Positions 267 through 6,920 of a DNA stretch of 64,000 bases are shown here, one piece after another; position 1 is the stretch's first letter, and each line of letters opens with the position of its first letter. This stretch comes from Tessaracoccus aquimaris. GTDB taxonomy: Bacteria > Actinomycetota > Actinomycetes > Propionibacteriales > Propionibacteriaceae. The translations under genes were made by a program, and so were the position numbers. Location of the stretch: positions 372,001 to 436,000 of the forward strand of contig NZ_CP019606.1 in the NCBI RefSeq assembly GCF_001997345.1, given 5' to 3'. The notes under the pieces were generated by a model. It was not told the DNA's origin and searched no databases. It worked only from the letters and a program-made list of their open reading frames with translations.

Positions 267-779
267 CTAACGTTTGGGTCGACGGACGATGAGGTCGCGG
301 CCATCGCATTCAGTGCAGTTGCACATCGGCCATCCGAAGCGAGCCCAGAAGGATGCAGACTGCTGAGTTGGGCCGACATAGATTTCGCGGTCACGGTACT
401 CAGACGCGAGTTGCTGGATGATCGCTGTGCCTAGGTGGGTTCCATTGCAGCGGAGGTCTTCTCGAACCTCGAAACTCCAGACCATGACTGCTGGGCTGTT
501 AGTGCGGGAAGAGTGGGCGGGGTACCTGAGGTGAAGAAGAAGCCGGGCGACTTCCTCGCCCCGTTGGATATATGACCGCCACTGATGGTCGGGTGGCCCG
601 AGCCCTCCGTTCGCCCACCACGTTCTGGTGAATCGGCGGTCATCAGCGTAGTCGGGCCTGCGCCTACCATGCATGACGACCATCTCCGGTTCTTCCCAGG
701 TAATCGCCTCGCCCACGCCGTTGAGTCTCTCAGAGTCAGGTGGTGGCTGCCCAGTACTGGGTGTTCGTCTCGCGGCCAC
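267..779 (-). CDS. GNAT-family N-acetyltransferase coupled to relaxase
   Basis: About 170 aa. The C-terminal half looks like a GNAT acetyl-CoA-dependent acyltransferase: a beta strand followed by an RCNGTHLGTAII stretch at about residues 110-121 resembles the pyrophosphate-binding motif A, and ASFWARFGW near residue 143 resembles motif B. The substrate is unknown. The GTG start shares one base with the TAG stop of the upstream relaxase gene (TAGTG), so the two are almost certainly translated together. That links the enzyme to conjugation or to self-modification of element proteins, which is inference. The family assignment rests on motif similarity only. Confidence 0.6.
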   Translation of the reverse strand: MAARRTPSTGQPPPDSERLNGVGEAITWEEPEMVVMHGRRRPDYADDRRFTRTWWANGGLGPPDHQWRSYIQRGEEVARLLLHLRYPAHSSRTNSPAVMVWSFEVREDLRCNGTHLGTAIIQQLASEYRDREIYVGPTQQSASFWARFGWPMCNCTECDGRDLIVRRPKR

Positions 780-3700
780 TAGATTGTCAGGCCGCTCCGC
801 TCTTCCGCGGTGCGGTCAACGGGGTCCTCAGTTCCCCAGTCGGCAACGGTGAGTTTCCTCGTTCGGCCGAGTTCGGCTCGGGCCCGGGCTGCGTCGATCT
901 TCTGCGCGGTCGAAGTTGGAGGCGCACCTAGGGGTGATTCGCCAGCGATCTGGTAGCGGTCCCGGTACGCAGCGACGGTGCGGGCTGACCGTCGCCAGCT
1001 TGCGTACCTCCGTCGATCCGTCGGTGGTGTGCCGAGCGCCTTCGTCCACGGCGCAGCTTCGTTCAGGGAGATGTCTAGGACGGCGTCGGCGCGGGTTTCG
1101 ATGAGCGAGCGTCGTTGGTCGAGTGCTTCGTGCATGTCGGTGGCCATAGGGCCGTCCGCGTGCGGGATCAGGCCGGCGATGAGTCGAGGGGCCTTCCTGG
1201 CTCGGCCTGCCTGGGCGGGTCGTCGGGTGGCTTGTTCGACGCGGTAGTGGAGGACGGCGGCGATGTCGTCGGCGTCGCTGAACCCGCGCGCGCCGACGAG
1301 ACGTGGCAGGAGCGCCTCGACATCGTGATGGTTGGCTTCGGCGTGGCGGAGTTCGGCAGTGAGCGGGCCGAAGGCGTCGGACTCGATCGCGTTCTCGGCT
1401 TGGTCGGTGGTCAGTCCGGAGCCGCGGATGAGGGTGGCCCAGCGGTCATGCTGGGCTGCGGCGGCCAGGGTCTCGTACTCGGCGGTGAGTTGGGCGATCG
1501 AGCCCCACTGGTTCTGTTCGGTGACGATGGTTTCGTGGGCGGACAGTTCGGCGCCGGTGTGCTGCAGAACGCCGTAGAGGACGCTTCGTGCACTCGCGTC
1601 GGGGTTCTCGCCGGGGTGCGGTTCTGCATGGTCGTCGGCGTGGTCGAGGATCACGTAGGCATGGTTGGTGTGGCGGCCGCGGGTCATGGAGACGTAGAAG
1701 TTCTCTCTTGTGGAGGTCGGCTCGACGAGGACGTGCGCGGTGTCGGTGGTGACTCCTTGGGCGCGGTAGGCGGTGACCGCGTACCCGAGATCGACATGCT
1801 CGGCCGCATACCCGGCTGGCAGGACGACCGTGCCGCCGAACCGGCGGCCTGGTTTGCGGATGGTGAGGGTCCCGTCGCCGCGGACGGACGTGATGGTCCA
1901 TATGTCGCCGTTGCGTACCCAGTCGCGTCCGTTCGTGGTGCGGAGTCGTCGGTCGTTGCGGCGGGTGATGATGGTGTCCCCGACTCCGGCGGTGGTGCCG
2001 TCGTGGAGTTCGATCTCGCGGTTGGGGGTGAGGGTGCCGTCGAGGATCAGGTCGGCGCGGGCTCGGGTGTTGAGGGCGGTCACGTCCTGTTGGGTTTCGG
2101 CGATTAGCACCGACACCAGGCCGGTGTCCCGGTCTGCCCGCCATGCGGTGTAGGCGGCGTCGGTCATGGTCTCGTGGTCGCCGTCGTGGATGCGGTGGTG
2201 GTTGAGGTAGGTGTCGATGACCTGGGTTCGTCCGTGCCGGAGCTCCAGGGATGCGGTCTTCTCCCACCCGTTCTTGAAGCGGTGGACATCGACCAACTCG
2301 GGCGTATCGTGACGGTCGCCGGCGAGCATCGCAAACGCCCCGCCGGCATCGACCGATTGCAGCTGGGCGTAGTCGCCCACCAAGAGGACCTTCGCTCCGA
2401 CCTCCTGGGCGAGGTGGGTGATGCGGTCCAGAGACAGGGTGCCGGCCAGGGACGCCTCATCGATGATGACAAGCTGACCAGCCTCGAAGGTCGTGCCGTG
2501 CAGAAGGTGGTTCTGCCACCACTTCGCGGTGTTCTCCGTGTCGATGCCGAGGTCGTCGGCGAGGACTTGGGCGGCGACCGCGGATGGTGCGAGACCGACG
2601 ACGGAGCCGGGACCGTGTTCGGTCTCCCAGGCTCGGCGGAGCGCGTTCATCGCGGTGGTCTTGCCCGAGCCCGCGGGACCGACCAACACATCGAGCACCC
2701 GCCCCGACACCGCGATCCGGACCAGCGCGTCGGCCTGATCGACACCGAGCAGCCGGCCCTCGGCATCACGCTTGCGGGTGATCTTCTCGACCCTCGCCAA
2801 CGAGACGGTCGGGCCGGTGAATGTGCGGGAGCGGTCGAGCAGCCGGTCCTCAGCTTGAAGCAGTACCTCGGAGGAGAACACCGTGGAGTGCTTCGGCCGG
2901 AACACCGAGGACCCATCCGACCGGCGAAACGCCGCAGGGGAGGTGGCCAGATCGGGGGGTGTCAAGCGCAGGGAGGCGTGTTCGGCGGCGTCGGCGACCA
3001 TGGCGACGATGGCTACGCGGTCGTGGATGGTGGCGAATCGCCATCCCATCGTCTGTCGGGAGGCTTCGGCCATCAGGTTCCACCTGCGCCAGGTCGAACG
3101 TTTCTCACCCACGGCCTCCACCACGGAATGGCCGAGTTCGTCGACTACGTCGAGGGGTACATCGTCGGCGCGCAGCAGCAACGGTGTGTCGTTGTCCGTG
3201 ACCCCGCGCGCCCACAGGGTCGCATCGTGGCCGAGTGTCTTGGTCGCGCGGGTCCACCACTCGGCGGTCAACTCCGCCAGGGACCGGACGTCCTTCTCAG
3301 GGCGGGTGCTGAGGGTGGCTTGGGCTCGGAGCTTCATGATCGTCGCTGGGGACGGACGCCGCCCATGCGCCGTGACGTAATCAGCGATGAGGCGGTCGGT
3401 CTCGGCATCGATGTGGCGGGCGCGGGTCGAGAACTCCGCGATCAGTTCCTCGGGGACGCCGGTGATCGCCCAGGCCGGGTTCTTGTCGCGCCCCATATCG
3501 CGGGCCTCCCAGGCAACGCCGAAGGTGCGGGTCATGTGGTCGGCGAACACCGCCTCATGCAACTCCGACAACGCGACCACGGCGGCGTGCATCGGTCGGC
3601 CGTCGAGGGAGCGCCACTTGCCGTCGAGCACGGTCTTGGCCTTGTTGGATATGACCACATGGGTGTGCAGGTGGGGGTCGCCGGCGCGGGAGTCGAAGTG

Positions 3701-4339
3701 GTCGAACGCCGTCGCGATCAGCCCGGTGACATCGACCTGTGCAACCGCGCCGTCCCCGGCGGTTGCACCGGTGCGGGTGGCTGCAACCTCGCGTTCCATG
3801 AACGCAACCACCTCCGCAACCGCACGATGATGCGCCTCACCGATCAACGCCTGAACCCCCGCATCCGCCACCGCCCACAACACGCTCGCGGACTTCGGGA
3901 TGCTGAACGTGAAATCGAACCCGGCCACCGCCCGCCGAGTACCCCGCGCGGCCTCCTCGGCAACGATCTGCGCGACCACCTCACCCTTGCGACCCGGCGA
4001 CAACGCCGGGTCCAGATCAGCGATCCGGGCCTCGATCCGCTCCGCCGGCGTCTTGTAGACCGGGAACGCCAAGCCCAACGGATCGCCGCTGATCGGATCA
4101 CGGCCCATGCCCATCAACAGCTGAAGCTGCGCCTCCGACACCACATCCCCGACAGCCAGTTCACCGTCGCCGAGCGAGGCCACGCCGTCACCCAGCCAAC
4201 GGCCAGGCGGTGTTCCTGCCTCCATGTAGTAGCGCGTCAATGGCGTCGAAAGCGGACGATCGCCGTCAGCGGCCACGACCGTCCGCAGCAGGTACCTGTA
4301 GCCATCGCCCGCCGACATCACCCGCATGGAAACCGTCAT
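779..4339 (-). CDS. traA: MobF-family conjugative relaxase-helicase (TraA/TrwC-like)
   Basis: About 1186 aa. It nicks oriT, binds the 5' end covalently and unwinds the transferred strand. The N-terminal TrwC-type relaxase domain has the paired tyrosines in LTRYYMEAG (about residues 37-38) and the metal-binding histidines in HLHTHVVISN (about residue 222). The C-terminal RecD-like helicase has Walker A GPAGSGKTT (about 555), Walker B IIDEAS (about 623) and YAVTAYRAQG (about 853). I chose the ATG at 4339 because it has GGGAGGT just upstream and gives the family's usual MTVS-RVMSAGDGY beginning. A longer reading to 4399 is open but has no homologous look. The gene overlaps the GNAT gene downstream. 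oriT is probably nearby but was not located. Confidence 0.95.
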   Translation of the reverse strand: MTVSMRVMSAGDGYRYLLRTVVAADGDRPLSTPLTRYYMEAGTPPGRWLGDGVASLGDGELAVGDVVSEAQLQLLMGMGRDPISGDPLGLAFPVYKTPAERIEARIADLDPALSPGRKGEVVAQIVAEEAARGTRRAVAGFDFTFSIPKSASVLWAVADAGVQALIGEAHHRAVAEVVAFMEREVAATRTGATAGDGAVAQVDVTGLIATAFDHFDSRAGDPHLHTHVVISNKAKTVLDGKWRSLDGRPMHAAVVALSELHEAVFADHMTRTFGVAWEARDMGRDKNPAWAITGVPEELIAEFSTRARHIDAETDRLIADYVTAHGRRPSPATIMKLRAQATLSTRPEKDVRSLAELTAEWWTRATKTLGHDATLWARGVTDNDTPLLLRADDVPLDVVDELGHSVVEAVGEKRSTWRRWNLMAEASRQTMGWRFATIHDRVAIVAMVADAAEHASLRLTPPDLATSPAAFRRSDGSSVFRPKHSTVFSSEVLLQAEDRLLDRSRTFTGPTVSLARVEKITRKRDAEGRLLGVDQADALVRIAVSGRVLDVLVGPAGSGKTTAMNALRRAWETEHGPGSVVGLAPSAVAAQVLADDLGIDTENTAKWWQNHLLHGTTFEAGQLVIIDEASLAGTLSLDRITHLAQEVGAKVLLVGDYAQLQSVDAGGAFAMLAGDRHDTPELVDVHRFKNGWEKTASLELRHGRTQVIDTYLNHHRIHDGDHETMTDAAYTAWRADRDTGLVSVLIAETQQDVTALNTRARADLILDGTLTPNREIELHDGTTAGVGDTIITRRNDRRLRTTNGRDWVRNGDIWTITSVRGDGTLTIRKPGRRFGGTVVLPAGYAAEHVDLGYAVTAYRAQGVTTDTAHVLVEPTSTRENFYVSMTRGRHTNHAYVILDHADDHAEPHPGENPDASARSVLYGVLQHTGAELSAHETIVTEQNQWGSIAQLTAEYETLAAAAQHDRWATLIRGSGLTTDQAENAIESDAFGPLTAELRHAEANHHDVEALLPRLVGARGFSDADDIAAVLHYRVEQATRRPAQAGRARKAPRLIAGLIPHADGPMATDMHEALDQRRSLIETRADAVLDISLNEAAPWTKALGTPPTDRRRYASWRRSARTVAAYRDRYQIAGESPLGAPPTSTAQKIDAARARAELGRTRKLTVADWGTEDPVDRTAEERSGLTI

Positions 4340-4638
4340 GCCCACCTCCCGGTCCTGCCGGGCAGGTGAGCGCCAGCCTCCTGTGACTTCTGCTGCCACA
4401 GGGCCCTAGACCTCGACCTGCAAGAGGCGTGTCAGCTCAGAAAAGGCAGGGTGTGGCGGAGCTTCCTGAGTGCGGGCTGTCGTGAATGGACGTTGCTGGT
4501 CGATGGACTGGATGGCACTGGGCCGGCGACCGCGAGGACAGGTCAGCACGACGTAGTGGTGCACCTGACAGGTGACCAGCCCGGCGACACGACTCACGCG
4601 AGTTCTGGCCGGGGATCATCCCGTCAGCCGGAGCATTC
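4340..4638. promoter_or_regulatory. Divergent traA/dcm intergenic region with CACCTG-A-CAGGTG palindrome
   Basis: About 300 bases between two divergent genes, without a supportable gene. A perfect 6-1-6 palindrome, CACCTG-A-CAGGTG, lies at 4562-4574 inside GTGGTGCACCTG. The same GCACCTG core recurs ahead of several transfer genes at 44-62 kb. It is probably an operator or leader element for the methyltransferase gene. This is also a plausible place for oriT, but no nick site can be assigned by eye. Confidence 0.45.
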
Positions 4639-5754
4639 ATGCACGACACACCGACCGATCCCGCGAGTCCGCTGAGGATCGGTTCGCTCTTCTCGGGATA
4701 CGGCGGCCTCGACCTCGCTGTCGAACATGTCTTCGGCGGAGAGACCGTCTGGTTCTCTGAGATCAATGAGCCCGTGGCCAGGGTCTTCGCCCACCACTGG
4801 CCCGACGCCCCGAATCTGGGCGACATCACAAGGATCAGCTGGTCGCAGGTCGAGCCCGTTGACATTCTGATCGGCGGCTTCCCCTGCCAAGACGTGTCCA
4901 CCGTCGGCAAGCGCGCCGGTCTCGCACCCGGAACCCGCTCAGGTCTATGGGCGCACATGGGCACAGCCATCGAAGTGCTGCAACCCCAATGGGTCGTCAT
5001 CGAAAACGTCCGCGGTCTGCTCTCGTCCCCAGCCATCCGACCGATCACCGAAGGAGACGACAATGCCCCGCGCAACCCCTGCGCAGCAACCCCCGACGAT
5101 ACAGCCCTTCGCGCTCTGGAGCCCGACCCGTGGCATCTGGGAGACAGCGCAACTCGACCTCTACGAGCAGCCGGCGCCGTACTCGGCGATTTGGCCGACC
5201 TGCGGATGGATGCACGATGGGTCGGTCTACCTGCTTCCCTTGTCGGCGCTCCTCACCCCCGGTTCCGCATCTTCCTCCTGGCCCAGCGTCAAGACGCTGT
5301 TCCGAACCCCGCTCGCGTCGGACTCGCTTCGAGGTGGAGAGACCCTGGACAAGGTGAAGGCGAGACGGGGCACGATCGCACTCTCGCACCAGATCATCGA
5401 CCTCGCGCTCCACGGACCGGATGGCTCGCTCAGCAGGCACAGCGACTCGGCGACGTTGTGGTCGCTGACCGAGGACATCTTCACCGCTGGGGACGCTATG
5501 CCCACGCCGTGGCTCGTTGGGAGCACATCACCGGACGAGTCGCACCAGCGCCCGCACTCCTGAGGAACGAGAATGGCCCGCGTCCAGCACCGGAGTTCGT
5601 GGAGTGGCTCATGGGACTCCCTACCGCCTGGCTCTCCGATCCACGACATGGCCTTCCGCCGAACCAGCAACTGATGGCGCTTGGCAATGGGGTCCTGCCT
5701 CTACAAGCGGCGATCGCACTGACTGCCGTGTCAGCGTTCTCGCCGCTTGGGTAG
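4639..5754 (+). CDS. dcm: DNA (cytosine-5-)-methyltransferase
   Basis: 371 aa, a single-domain C5 methyltransferase. Motif I is FSGYGGLDLA near residue 20. The catalytic cysteine is in GGFPCQDVS (about 80-88), with ENV at about 121, a PHPRFRIF motif VIII-like segment near 205, and the motif X region MALGNGVLPLQAA near 347. It methylates cytosine in an unknown target, probably protecting the element against host restriction. The family is common in actinobacterial phages and conjugative elements. The start has a weak CCGGAG. Between motifs IV and X a second reading frame appears to code for another protein (5063-5563), so this gene seems to be dual-coding. Confidence 0.93.
   Translation: MHDTPTDPASPLRIGSLFSGYGGLDLAVEHVFGGETVWFSEINEPVARVFAHHWPDAPNLGDITRISWSQVEPVDILIGGFPCQDVSTVGKRAGLAPGTRSGLWAHMGTAIEVLQPQWVVIENVRGLLSSPAIRPITEGDDNAPRNPCAATPDDTALRALEPDPWHLGDSATRPLRAAGAVLGDLADLRMDARWVGLPASLVGAPHPRFRIFLLAQRQDAVPNPARVGLASRWRDPGQGEGETGHDRTLAPDHRPRAPRTGWLAQQAQRLGDVVVADRGHLHRWGRYAHAVARWEHITGRVAPAPALLRNENGPRPAPEFVEWLMGLPTAWLSDPRHGLPPNQQLMALGNGVLPLQAAIALTAVSAFSPLG
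5063..5563 (+). CDS. Embedded overlapping ORF inside dcm (conserved methyltransferase-linked small protein)
   Basis: 166 aa, wholly inside dcm in the +1 frame. It has its own strong Shine-Dalgarno AAGGAG (5051-5056) six bases before the ATG, which is rare for a chance frame. The protein does not look like a shadow: it is only moderately charged and has a WPTCGWMHDGSVYLLP segment and a GGETLDKVKARRGTIALSHQ segment. From memory, both resemble a short protein often found beside or within C5 methyltransferase genes of actinophages, with 'SDSxRGGE...RRGTIALSHQIID'-like wording. That recollection needs a search. Its function is unknown; a target-recognition or regulatory partner of the methylase is a guess. 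Confidence 0.6.
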   Translation: MPRATPAQQPPTIQPFALWSPTRGIWETAQLDLYEQPAPYSAIWPTCGWMHDGSVYLLPLSALLTPGSASSSWPSVKTLFRTPLASDSLRGGETLDKVKARRGTIALSHQIIDLALHGPDGSLSRHSDSATLWSLTEDIFTAGDAMPTPWLVGSTSPDESHQRPHS

Positions 5755-5969
5755 CGGAGGCTACGCGACCGCCGGCCGCGATCACTCCGCTGGGTGAGCG
5801 GCGGGGGTGTCCCCGATGCGGTGATCCTGCGTTCGTAGGTCGGCCAGGCAGCGAGCAGTAGGAGCCCGTTGGCGCTCGGCGTGCTGGGGTCCGCGGTGTG
5901 GGTGGTGATTGAGAGGTGTGGGGTAGCGCGCTTTGTTGCCTGTTTGGGAGTCGTTGACAGGGGTTGGGC

Positions 5970-6920
5970 CTATGACGCGTCCGCGTTATCCATCCTCGTG
6001 GGTAGCCGGTGTAGTCGTATGACGAGTGTCGCCGCCGTGGCGAAGGCGGCGAAGATGGTGATGTTTGTGAGGGCGTCGGTCCATGAGATCGCCTGCGTTG
6101 CCCGGAGTTGCGCGATGCTGGAGGTCATTGCGGCGATGGAGTAGGCGCCGACATTGTTGATGATGTGAGCCGCGATGCCTGCTTCGAGACCGCCGGTGAG
6201 GATCACGAGGGTCGAGGCGAGCAGCCCGAAAGCGAGTCTGTCTACGAACAGTGCGGCGTTCTGGACGCCATGGAGTGAGGCAAACACGAGTGACGATGCG
6301 GCGGCCCCGATCCAGGGGTTGGCGGTGAGTCTGGTCATCGACTGTAGTAGGTAGCCGCGGAAGAGGTACTCTTCGGCTGCGGCCTGCCACGGGGTGACGA
6401 TTGCCACGACGACAAGGAAGCTCCACCACTGCGGCTGCGGCGCGAACTGGAAGGGCTGGCTTTGGAGGTAGCCGACCAGCAAGCTCCCGCCAAGGATGAG
6501 GATGGTCGCTATCCCGAGACATATCCCGAGATAGCCGCGGCGCAGACGTTGTTCCACCGAGGAGAGTTGTCCAAGCGGGGCACGGTGGAGTCGGGTCATC
6601 AGGAGCCAGCAGCACAGGAGCAGCCCGGCGATGGCGATGCCGTTCGCCGCGAGTCCGGTGGGTATCTGGTAGCTGGCGGCATAACTCTGAAAGTCGGTGA
6701 AAGGCACGTCGGGTGCTGTCACGTAGTGGGAGACGGCGGTGATCGCCAGCGAGATCCATGGCGTGAGAGTGAAGTAGAACGCGAACGCGATGAGGATGCC
6801 GAGCAGCGCTGCGGGTCGTCCTGCTTGGCAGCTGAGCTGCTCAGCGTAGGTGACCGGCGGCGCGGGCGAGGTCTTGTCCGTCCTGCTGTCTGGGTCCGGC
6901 TGATTGCTGGGATAAGCCAT
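5970..6920 (-). CDS. CPBP-family intramembrane metalloprotease
   Basis: 316 aa membrane protein with about eight hydrophobic segments. It carries the CPBP (Abi/CaaX prenyl protease-like) signature EEYLFRGYL near residue 183, followed by a second conserved FASLHG and a later HIINN, which supply the glutamates and histidines of the active site. Family members act in peptide maturation, self-immunity or membrane proteolysis. No partner peptide gene is visible. It is a monocistronic gene with an ATG start, between dcm and the dtxR-like gene. The family call is firm and the role is unknown. Confidence 0.85.
   Translation of the reverse strand: MAYPSNQPDPDSRTDKTSPAPPVTYAEQLSCQAGRPAALLGILIAFAFYFTLTPWISLAITAVSHYVTAPDVPFTDFQSYAASYQIPTGLAANGIAIAGLLLCCWLLMTRLHRAPLGQLSSVEQRLRRGYLGICLGIATILILGGSLLVGYLQSQPFQFAPQPQWWSFLVVVAIVTPWQAAAEEYLFRGYLLQSMTRLTANPWIGAAASSLVFASLHGVQNAALFVDRLAFGLLASTLVILTGGLEAGIAAHIINNVGAYSIAAMTSSIAQLRATQAISWTDALTNITIFAAFATAATLVIRLHRLPTRMDNADAS

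Follow-up and report, generated by a model that had tools for sequence, protein, structure and literature searches.

Long same-strand overlaps with conservation of both encoded proteins are considered uncommon among bacteria. Among the C5-cytosine methyltransferases, the small polypeptide of M.EcoHK31I is reportedly encoded within the large one in another frame, an arrangement said to have been described by Lee et al. in 1995 and to be defining for enzymes of its type, and M.EaeI is similar to M.EcoHK31I. The two polypeptides of M.EcoHK31I (YGGCCR) make up one C5-methyltransferase (PMC3404938), which is described as 'naturally split' (PMC3439449); the large polypeptide carries motifs I-VIII and X and a predicted target recognition domain (TRD), and the small one carries motif IX only (PMC3404938). 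The alpha and beta parts of M.AquI are split inside the variable region that separates motif VIII from motif IX (PMC3404938). An out-of-frame ORF in actinophage methylases, ShiLan, is a mobile insertion that codes for an HNH endonuclease (PMC11855218).

The dcm gene of the window (the whole stretch of 64,000 nucleotides of Tessaracoccus aquimaris DNA analysed) and ORF166, the protein-coding frame within it, resemble M.EcoHK31I in the nesting of a second polypeptide in another frame. However, whereas the small subunit of M.EcoHK31I carries only motif IX, the product of dcm (alpha) keeps motifs IX and X and that of ORF166 (beta) has a module in the TRD slot. Going by its motif layout, ORF166 is thus not of the M.EcoHK31I type, yet it may well work likewise, and the window pair would be a variant of a nested split C5-methyltransferase, with M.EcoHK31I as a precedent in which the motifs are divided otherwise. 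Beta also differs from the beta subunit of M.AquI, as it is fully nested in alpha and has no motifs IX-X; a small subunit of the M.AquI type, with the distal variable region and motifs IX-X, occurs among some phage relatives, and the overlapping pairs of the phages Jamun, ArV1 and Pumbaa resemble the M.AquI split. Similarly, phrog_1008, a second methylase gene of actinophages, extends into motifs IX-X, whereas ORF166 does not. No description of an actinobacterial nested dcm partner was recognised in the literature searched, the coverage of which was partial. The reading favoured here, with a probability of about 0.75, is that a split C5-methyltransferase has ORF166 as its beta subunit, nested in the gene for alpha, and that this subunit supplies target recognition in trans.

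The dcm locus and its nested frame

The features of the locus are given in Table 1, with names and numbers of the alpha motifs (VII-VIII, IX-like and X) that we take to apply. The dcm frame is uninterrupted over positions 4639-5754, according to both the sequence and the ORF list, and its product matches the C5-methyltransferase core PF00145, with motifs I, IV (PCQ), VI (ENV), VIII and X present. ORF166 lies entirely within dcm at an offset of +1 (5063-4639 = 424 = 1 mod 3) and ends upstream of motifs IX-X; the motif IX-like FVEWLMGLP belongs to alpha and not to ORF166. The preliminary description of this DNA, made from the sequence alone, was right about the coordinates and the +1 frame of the 166-codon ORF, about the AAGGAG six bases before its ATG, and about a methyltransferase frame that stays intact and carries family motifs.

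Table 1. Positions of the dcm locus and its parts in the window
Feature	Position	Strand	Size, content or basis
Alpha (dcm), C5-cytosine DNA methyltransferase	4639..5754	+	371 aa; motifs I-VIII, IX and X in a single frame
Beta (ORF166), nested +1-frame protein	5063..5563	+	166 aa; ORF list, homologues and two-frame selection
AAGGAG, RBS-like	5051..5056	+	6 bases, then beta ATG at 5063-5065
Beta residues 79-113 (LFRTPLASDSLRGGETLDKVKARRGTIALSHQIID), 'TP unit', core with the strongest conservation	5297..5401	+	conserved alignment columns; in the recognition-domain slot of alpha
Alpha residues 190-217 (GAPHPRFRIFLLA), motifs VII-VIII	5206..5289	+	conservation; overlaps beta residues 49-76
Alpha residues 218-260, recognition-domain slot	5290..5418	+	low model confidence; alpha drifts, beta nearly fixed
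Alpha motif IX-like (PAPEFVEWLMGLP) and motif X (GNGVLPLQAAIAL)	5578..5718	+	conservation; outside beta
TrwC-type relaxase/helicase	779..4399	-	PF08751, E=2.3e-87; divergent from dcm

ORF166 matched 0 Pfam and 0 NCBIfam families. The profile phrog_1008 ('DNA methyltransferase'; profile positions 67-148) matched ORF166 residues 10-93 with E=1e-4, over 84 residues only, and all six long beta proteins of phages and plasmids that were scanned matched this profile too (best E=4.9e-96). Furthermore, relatives of ORF166 were found in 174 phage records, 162 of which represent Mycobacterium, Arthrobacter or Gordonia phages; together with the phrog_1008 match, this bears out the methyltransferase-linked actinophage family that had been named in the preliminary description. 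A beta profile searched against solved structures retrieved no methyltransferase and only two U2AF matches (E about 0.6), which were taken as chance. In the records examined, either one protein of the pair is annotated or both are named 'DNA methyltransferase', and methylases annotated as 'split' in phages may be genuine two-subunit genes.

Conservation and selection in the two frames

The length of the open +1 frame is ordinary for a GC-rich gene and is on its own no evidence of a second gene. Indeed, the native open stretch of 230 codons was equalled or exceeded in 26/300 dcm-synonymous shuffles, so that the length was rejected as support for beta and the argument previously drawn from 166 uninterrupted codons falls away. 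The amino acid sequence of beta was assessed with a profile HMM that was composed of bacterial beta sequences only, phage sequences not being included. This profile scored 274 bits on the native window and at most 104 bits in 300 whole-gene shuffles; when only the overlap was shuffled (n=1000), the maximum was 101 bits, compared with a native beta score of 266 bits. Among the 18 phage and plasmid loci fetched, it also matched dcm in the +1 frame in 17, with no match in the phage dcm L092. The native beta score was reached by 0/1000 dcm-preserving shuffles in 17 of the 18 loci that were shuffle-tested (the window locus and the 17 HMM-matched phage and plasmid loci), and by 2/1000 in the remaining one (L093). 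Judged by these scores, the conserved amino acid sequence of ORF166 is not due to chance.

Homologues of ORF166 are plentiful, as 559 of 623 candidates were retrieved at E<=10 in the protein search and 117 of the best 120 listed have a length of 149-169 aa. Nearly all of the beta matches (n=64 in 67 scanned loci) were located at a dcm locus with an offset of +1 (63 matches), L120 being the exception. Similarly, a DNA pattern of the ORF166 motif retrieved 19 viral contigs, unselected for dcm, and the overlap with dcm at +1 was present in 19/19. The homologue check proposed in the preliminary description was thus successful with respect to the number of homologues and to phage beta proteins that extend beyond the overlap, but the stand-alone copies it had looked for were not found among these 19 contigs; on the protein side, this search rests on the best 120 listed, which rarer copies may escape. 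A DNA pattern of a proteobacterial variant of beta matched 0 viral contigs. The relatives were mostly fetched via beta, so that the frequency of dcm without beta cannot be read from them.

For the analysis of selection, 80 of 84 relatives were kept from a scan of species genomes, giving 81 loci with that of the window. A continuous dcm match was present in 59 of these, which were collapsed, when near-identical, to 48 representatives; the continuity test failed in the other 22, in some owing to cut contigs, and L012 and L037 contained an alpha stop though they passed it. Diversity and pairwise synonymous differences were calculated for 45 sequences, i.e., the 48 representatives minus L012, L030 and L037. 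For alpha codon positions 1/2/3, the diversity amounted to 0.169/0.123/0.381 for residues 1-141 and to 0.263/0.211/0.581 for residues 309-371, compared with 0.469/0.145/0.055 for residues 221-260. As position 1 of alpha is position 3 of beta and position 3 of alpha is position 2 of beta, the finding that alpha position 1 is the freest and alpha position 3 the most fixed in residues 221-260 indicates selection in the beta frame.

Between pairs of sequences, the synonymous difference counted in the frame of alpha was 0.384 for residues 1-141, 0.203 for 143-180, 0.363 for 181-217, 0.058 for 218-260, 0.272 for 261-287 and 0.614 for 309-371. The value of residues 218-260 was below the N-terminal value in 975/975 pairs, whereas that of residues 181-217 (motifs VII-VIII) was so in just 543/975 pairs (median ratio 0.95). 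On these values, the suppression of synonymous change in dcm is regional; the suppression anticipated earlier for the whole of 5063-5563 holds strongly for residues 143-180 and 218-260 and weakly for 261-287, but is not clear for 181-217.

The alpha frame is kept open across beta as well, as alpha-frame stops within the beta segment were present in 3/54 representatives, whereas shuffles that preserve beta gave 44 on average and never fewer than 32, and the third frame was stopped in 54/54. The matched segment crosses one or two beta stops in 18/54 representatives, mostly close to its end; beta is truncated early in L030, L057 and L086, and L123 contains an intact ORF of 236 residues. An RNA element as the cause of the constraint was rejected, given that no Rfam match at gathering scores was found in positions 4300-6000 and that the constraint shows codon periodicity. 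The codon patterns of both frames are those of two proteins selected in one stretch of DNA, and the second real protein within dcm put forward in the preliminary description agrees with homologues, shuffle scores and selection alike; it is supported by the tests for selection and by the phage proteins that extend past the overlap.

In addition, a start codon was present at 60 of the 64 beta starts considered in relatives (58 ATG) and a Shine-Dalgarno (SD)-like word at 50, loci with a match starting after beta residue 16 being left out of this count. Both signals are retained in a mean of 31% of the alpha-preserving shuffles, and the conserved start signal therefore provides only moderate evidence for beta.

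A probable recognition subunit acting in trans and its alternatives

The preliminary description assigned no function to beta; on the present evidence, it is likely to be a subunit of the methyltransferase encoded by dcm. The TP unit of beta lies in the TRD slot of alpha, and TP units between motifs VIII and X of relatives were counted 86 times in the beta frame (35 of 40 loci), 27 times in the alpha frame (10 loci) and once in the third frame, the 40 loci being those that passed the motif filters out of 74, with duplicates collapsed beforehand. In the viral contig L120, a unit resembling the beta core (LFRTPVAAEAQGG...LSGQMID) occurs in the alpha frame, downstream of a stop codon. The relatives display two partitions of the frames, with motifs IX-X either in the alpha frame, as in the window, or in the beta frame; in the latter type, beta comprises the overlap, TP repeats and motifs IX-X, and in some phages the beta protein extends past the overlap. 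The open-frame and IX-X labels of L117, L120 and L123 in this comparison of layouts are unreliable, as open stretches were counted there from where the match begins. AlphaFold2 modelled alpha with a pLDDT below 50 at residues 221-255 and 125-172, both in or adjoining the overlap, and also outside the slot, at residues 83-101 and 201-207. This suggests, low pLDDT not being proof, that alpha has no folded TRD in cis between motifs VIII and IX. Beta alone was not modelled confidently (mean pLDDT 48.8, pTM 0.19) and no TRD fold was visible.

The window contains two real overlapping genes, the products of which are most likely the two subunits of one methyltransferase, one stretch of DNA encoding a C5-cytosine methyltransferase of two polypeptides. 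Alpha carries motifs IX-X in addition to the catalytic core (motifs I-VIII), and beta would be translated separately, in the +1 frame, from an internal ribosome-binding site and ATG, and would form a complex with alpha. Beta would contribute in trans a TRD-like target recognition module that is absent from alpha, while the alpha segment in the TRD slot drifts, is kept open and is probably a disordered spacer. The pair may serve a TrwC-type mobile element as its orphan modification enzyme, most likely shielding that element from host restriction.

It is unlikely that beta is a real, dual-coded protein with another task, whether as a partner that regulates alpha, acts as its chaperone or keeps it soluble, or as a protein of the element unrelated to alpha. 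The lack of a confident AlphaFold2 fold and of a Pfam or NCBIfam family would be in keeping with such a task, but beta of other phages runs on into TP repeats and methyltransferase motifs IX-X (the profile comparison shares rows with it and is not independent), TP units switch between the alpha and beta frames in one slot and almost never enter the third frame, and the alpha model is without a confident recognition domain. Programmed frameshifting, which would fuse alpha and beta segments into one chain without separate initiation of beta, has a much smaller probability still. Alpha does stop shortly past motif VIII in several phages, with motifs IX-X in the +1 frame, and the natural chimeras P0154 and P0061 share frames; however, phages and bacteria alike conserve the first approximately 50 residues of beta, which precede any point at which a shift would be useful, the start codon and SD-like sequence are usually retained at the same site, and a single chain in the window would have to shift twice, into the beta frame and out of it again, as motifs IX-X are in the alpha frame.

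It is hardly credible that there is no second protein and that the +1 frame merely follows from a high G+C content and the conservation of alpha. The open length, within the shuffle range (26/300), would agree with this view, but the beta sequence score, the codon-position periodicity and the synonymous suppression contradict it, diversity being lowest at alpha third positions of residues 221-260. An insertion of an out-of-frame homing endonuclease was considered too, since ShiLan lies out of frame within the methylases of actinophages (PMC11855218) and ORF166 is likewise an out-of-frame ORF in a methylase gene of the actinophage type. Unlike ShiLan, ORF166 has no match to HNH or any other Pfam family and overlaps native methylase sequence, namely motifs VII-VIII of alpha, and hence is no insertion; its identity with an HNH or ShiLan-like element was rejected on these grounds, leaving this explanation a negligible probability.

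The proposed recognition subunit in trans may be one form of a wider class, a generalisation to which little better than even odds are given. In this class of cytosine methyltransferases of phages and conjugative elements, the catalytic core and the recognition module would be encoded in overlapping frames, with the module either in cis or in trans at +1, and lineages would have moved motifs between the frames. If so, recognition parts would be exchanged by recombination as two-frame cassettes. The nested pair also offers a testable system for the division of a modular enzyme between frames.

Mobile-element setting and relatives with other layouts

A homologue of the TrwC-type relaxase was located on the strand opposite to dcm in 65 of 80 related loci, and upstream in all 65. 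Going by this neighbour, the pair would be placed on a conjugative or mobilizable element. Records under the names Propioniciclava soli and Tessaracoccus bendigoensis contain loci with identical beta, and the element therefore moves. Beta matches occurred in 27/147 genomes of the family (E<=1e-10) and in 7/396 genomes of the phylum (E<=1e-6), the window genome and partial matches being included in both counts. An orphan methyltransferase on a mobile element would fit protection from host restriction. The locus L050, on a contig labelled as a Planctomycetota MAG, has the same beta match statistics as L051 and L052 (Brevibacterium and Gulosibacter), which may reflect a mobile element or contamination.

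The relative L024 (alpha at 1824-2936), with an alpha that is 83% identical, has DNA identical to that of the window through alpha residue 175, after which the DNA identity is 62-87% per block of 20 residues, up to residue 360. Recombination has likely occurred where the recognition half begins, as if this half had been exchanged.

Another layout was found in the viral contigs L151-L155, in which alpha contains motifs I-VIII and X and beta contains TP repeats and a motif IX-like end (motif names that we take to apply), the two overlapping at +1. They share with M.EcoHK31I the division of motifs IX and X. In each of five leave-one-out tests, 0/500 alpha-preserving shuffles reached the native score. 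Their beta profile matched the long actinophage beta with a probability of 96.5 and ORF166 weakly, with a probability of 60. The pair at L153:2344-3310, two same-strand subunits at +1 of 318 and 320 aa that are almost co-extensive, is perhaps more striking than that of the window.

Two natural chimeras were encountered among the proteins, P0154 running from the alpha N-terminus into beta and P0061 from beta into motifs IX-X, each in one frame; a frameshift, a sequencing error and a functional fusion are all possible in both cases. On an Embleya plasmid (L096:1963-5113), two methylase loci lie close by each other, one for each frame architecture. Finally, the viral contig L117 contains, at 1994-2497 (L117:1994-2497), an extra ORF overlapping the alpha frame that, by eye, has the look of a LAGLIDADG-type homing endonuclease (VAGLIDGEGC).
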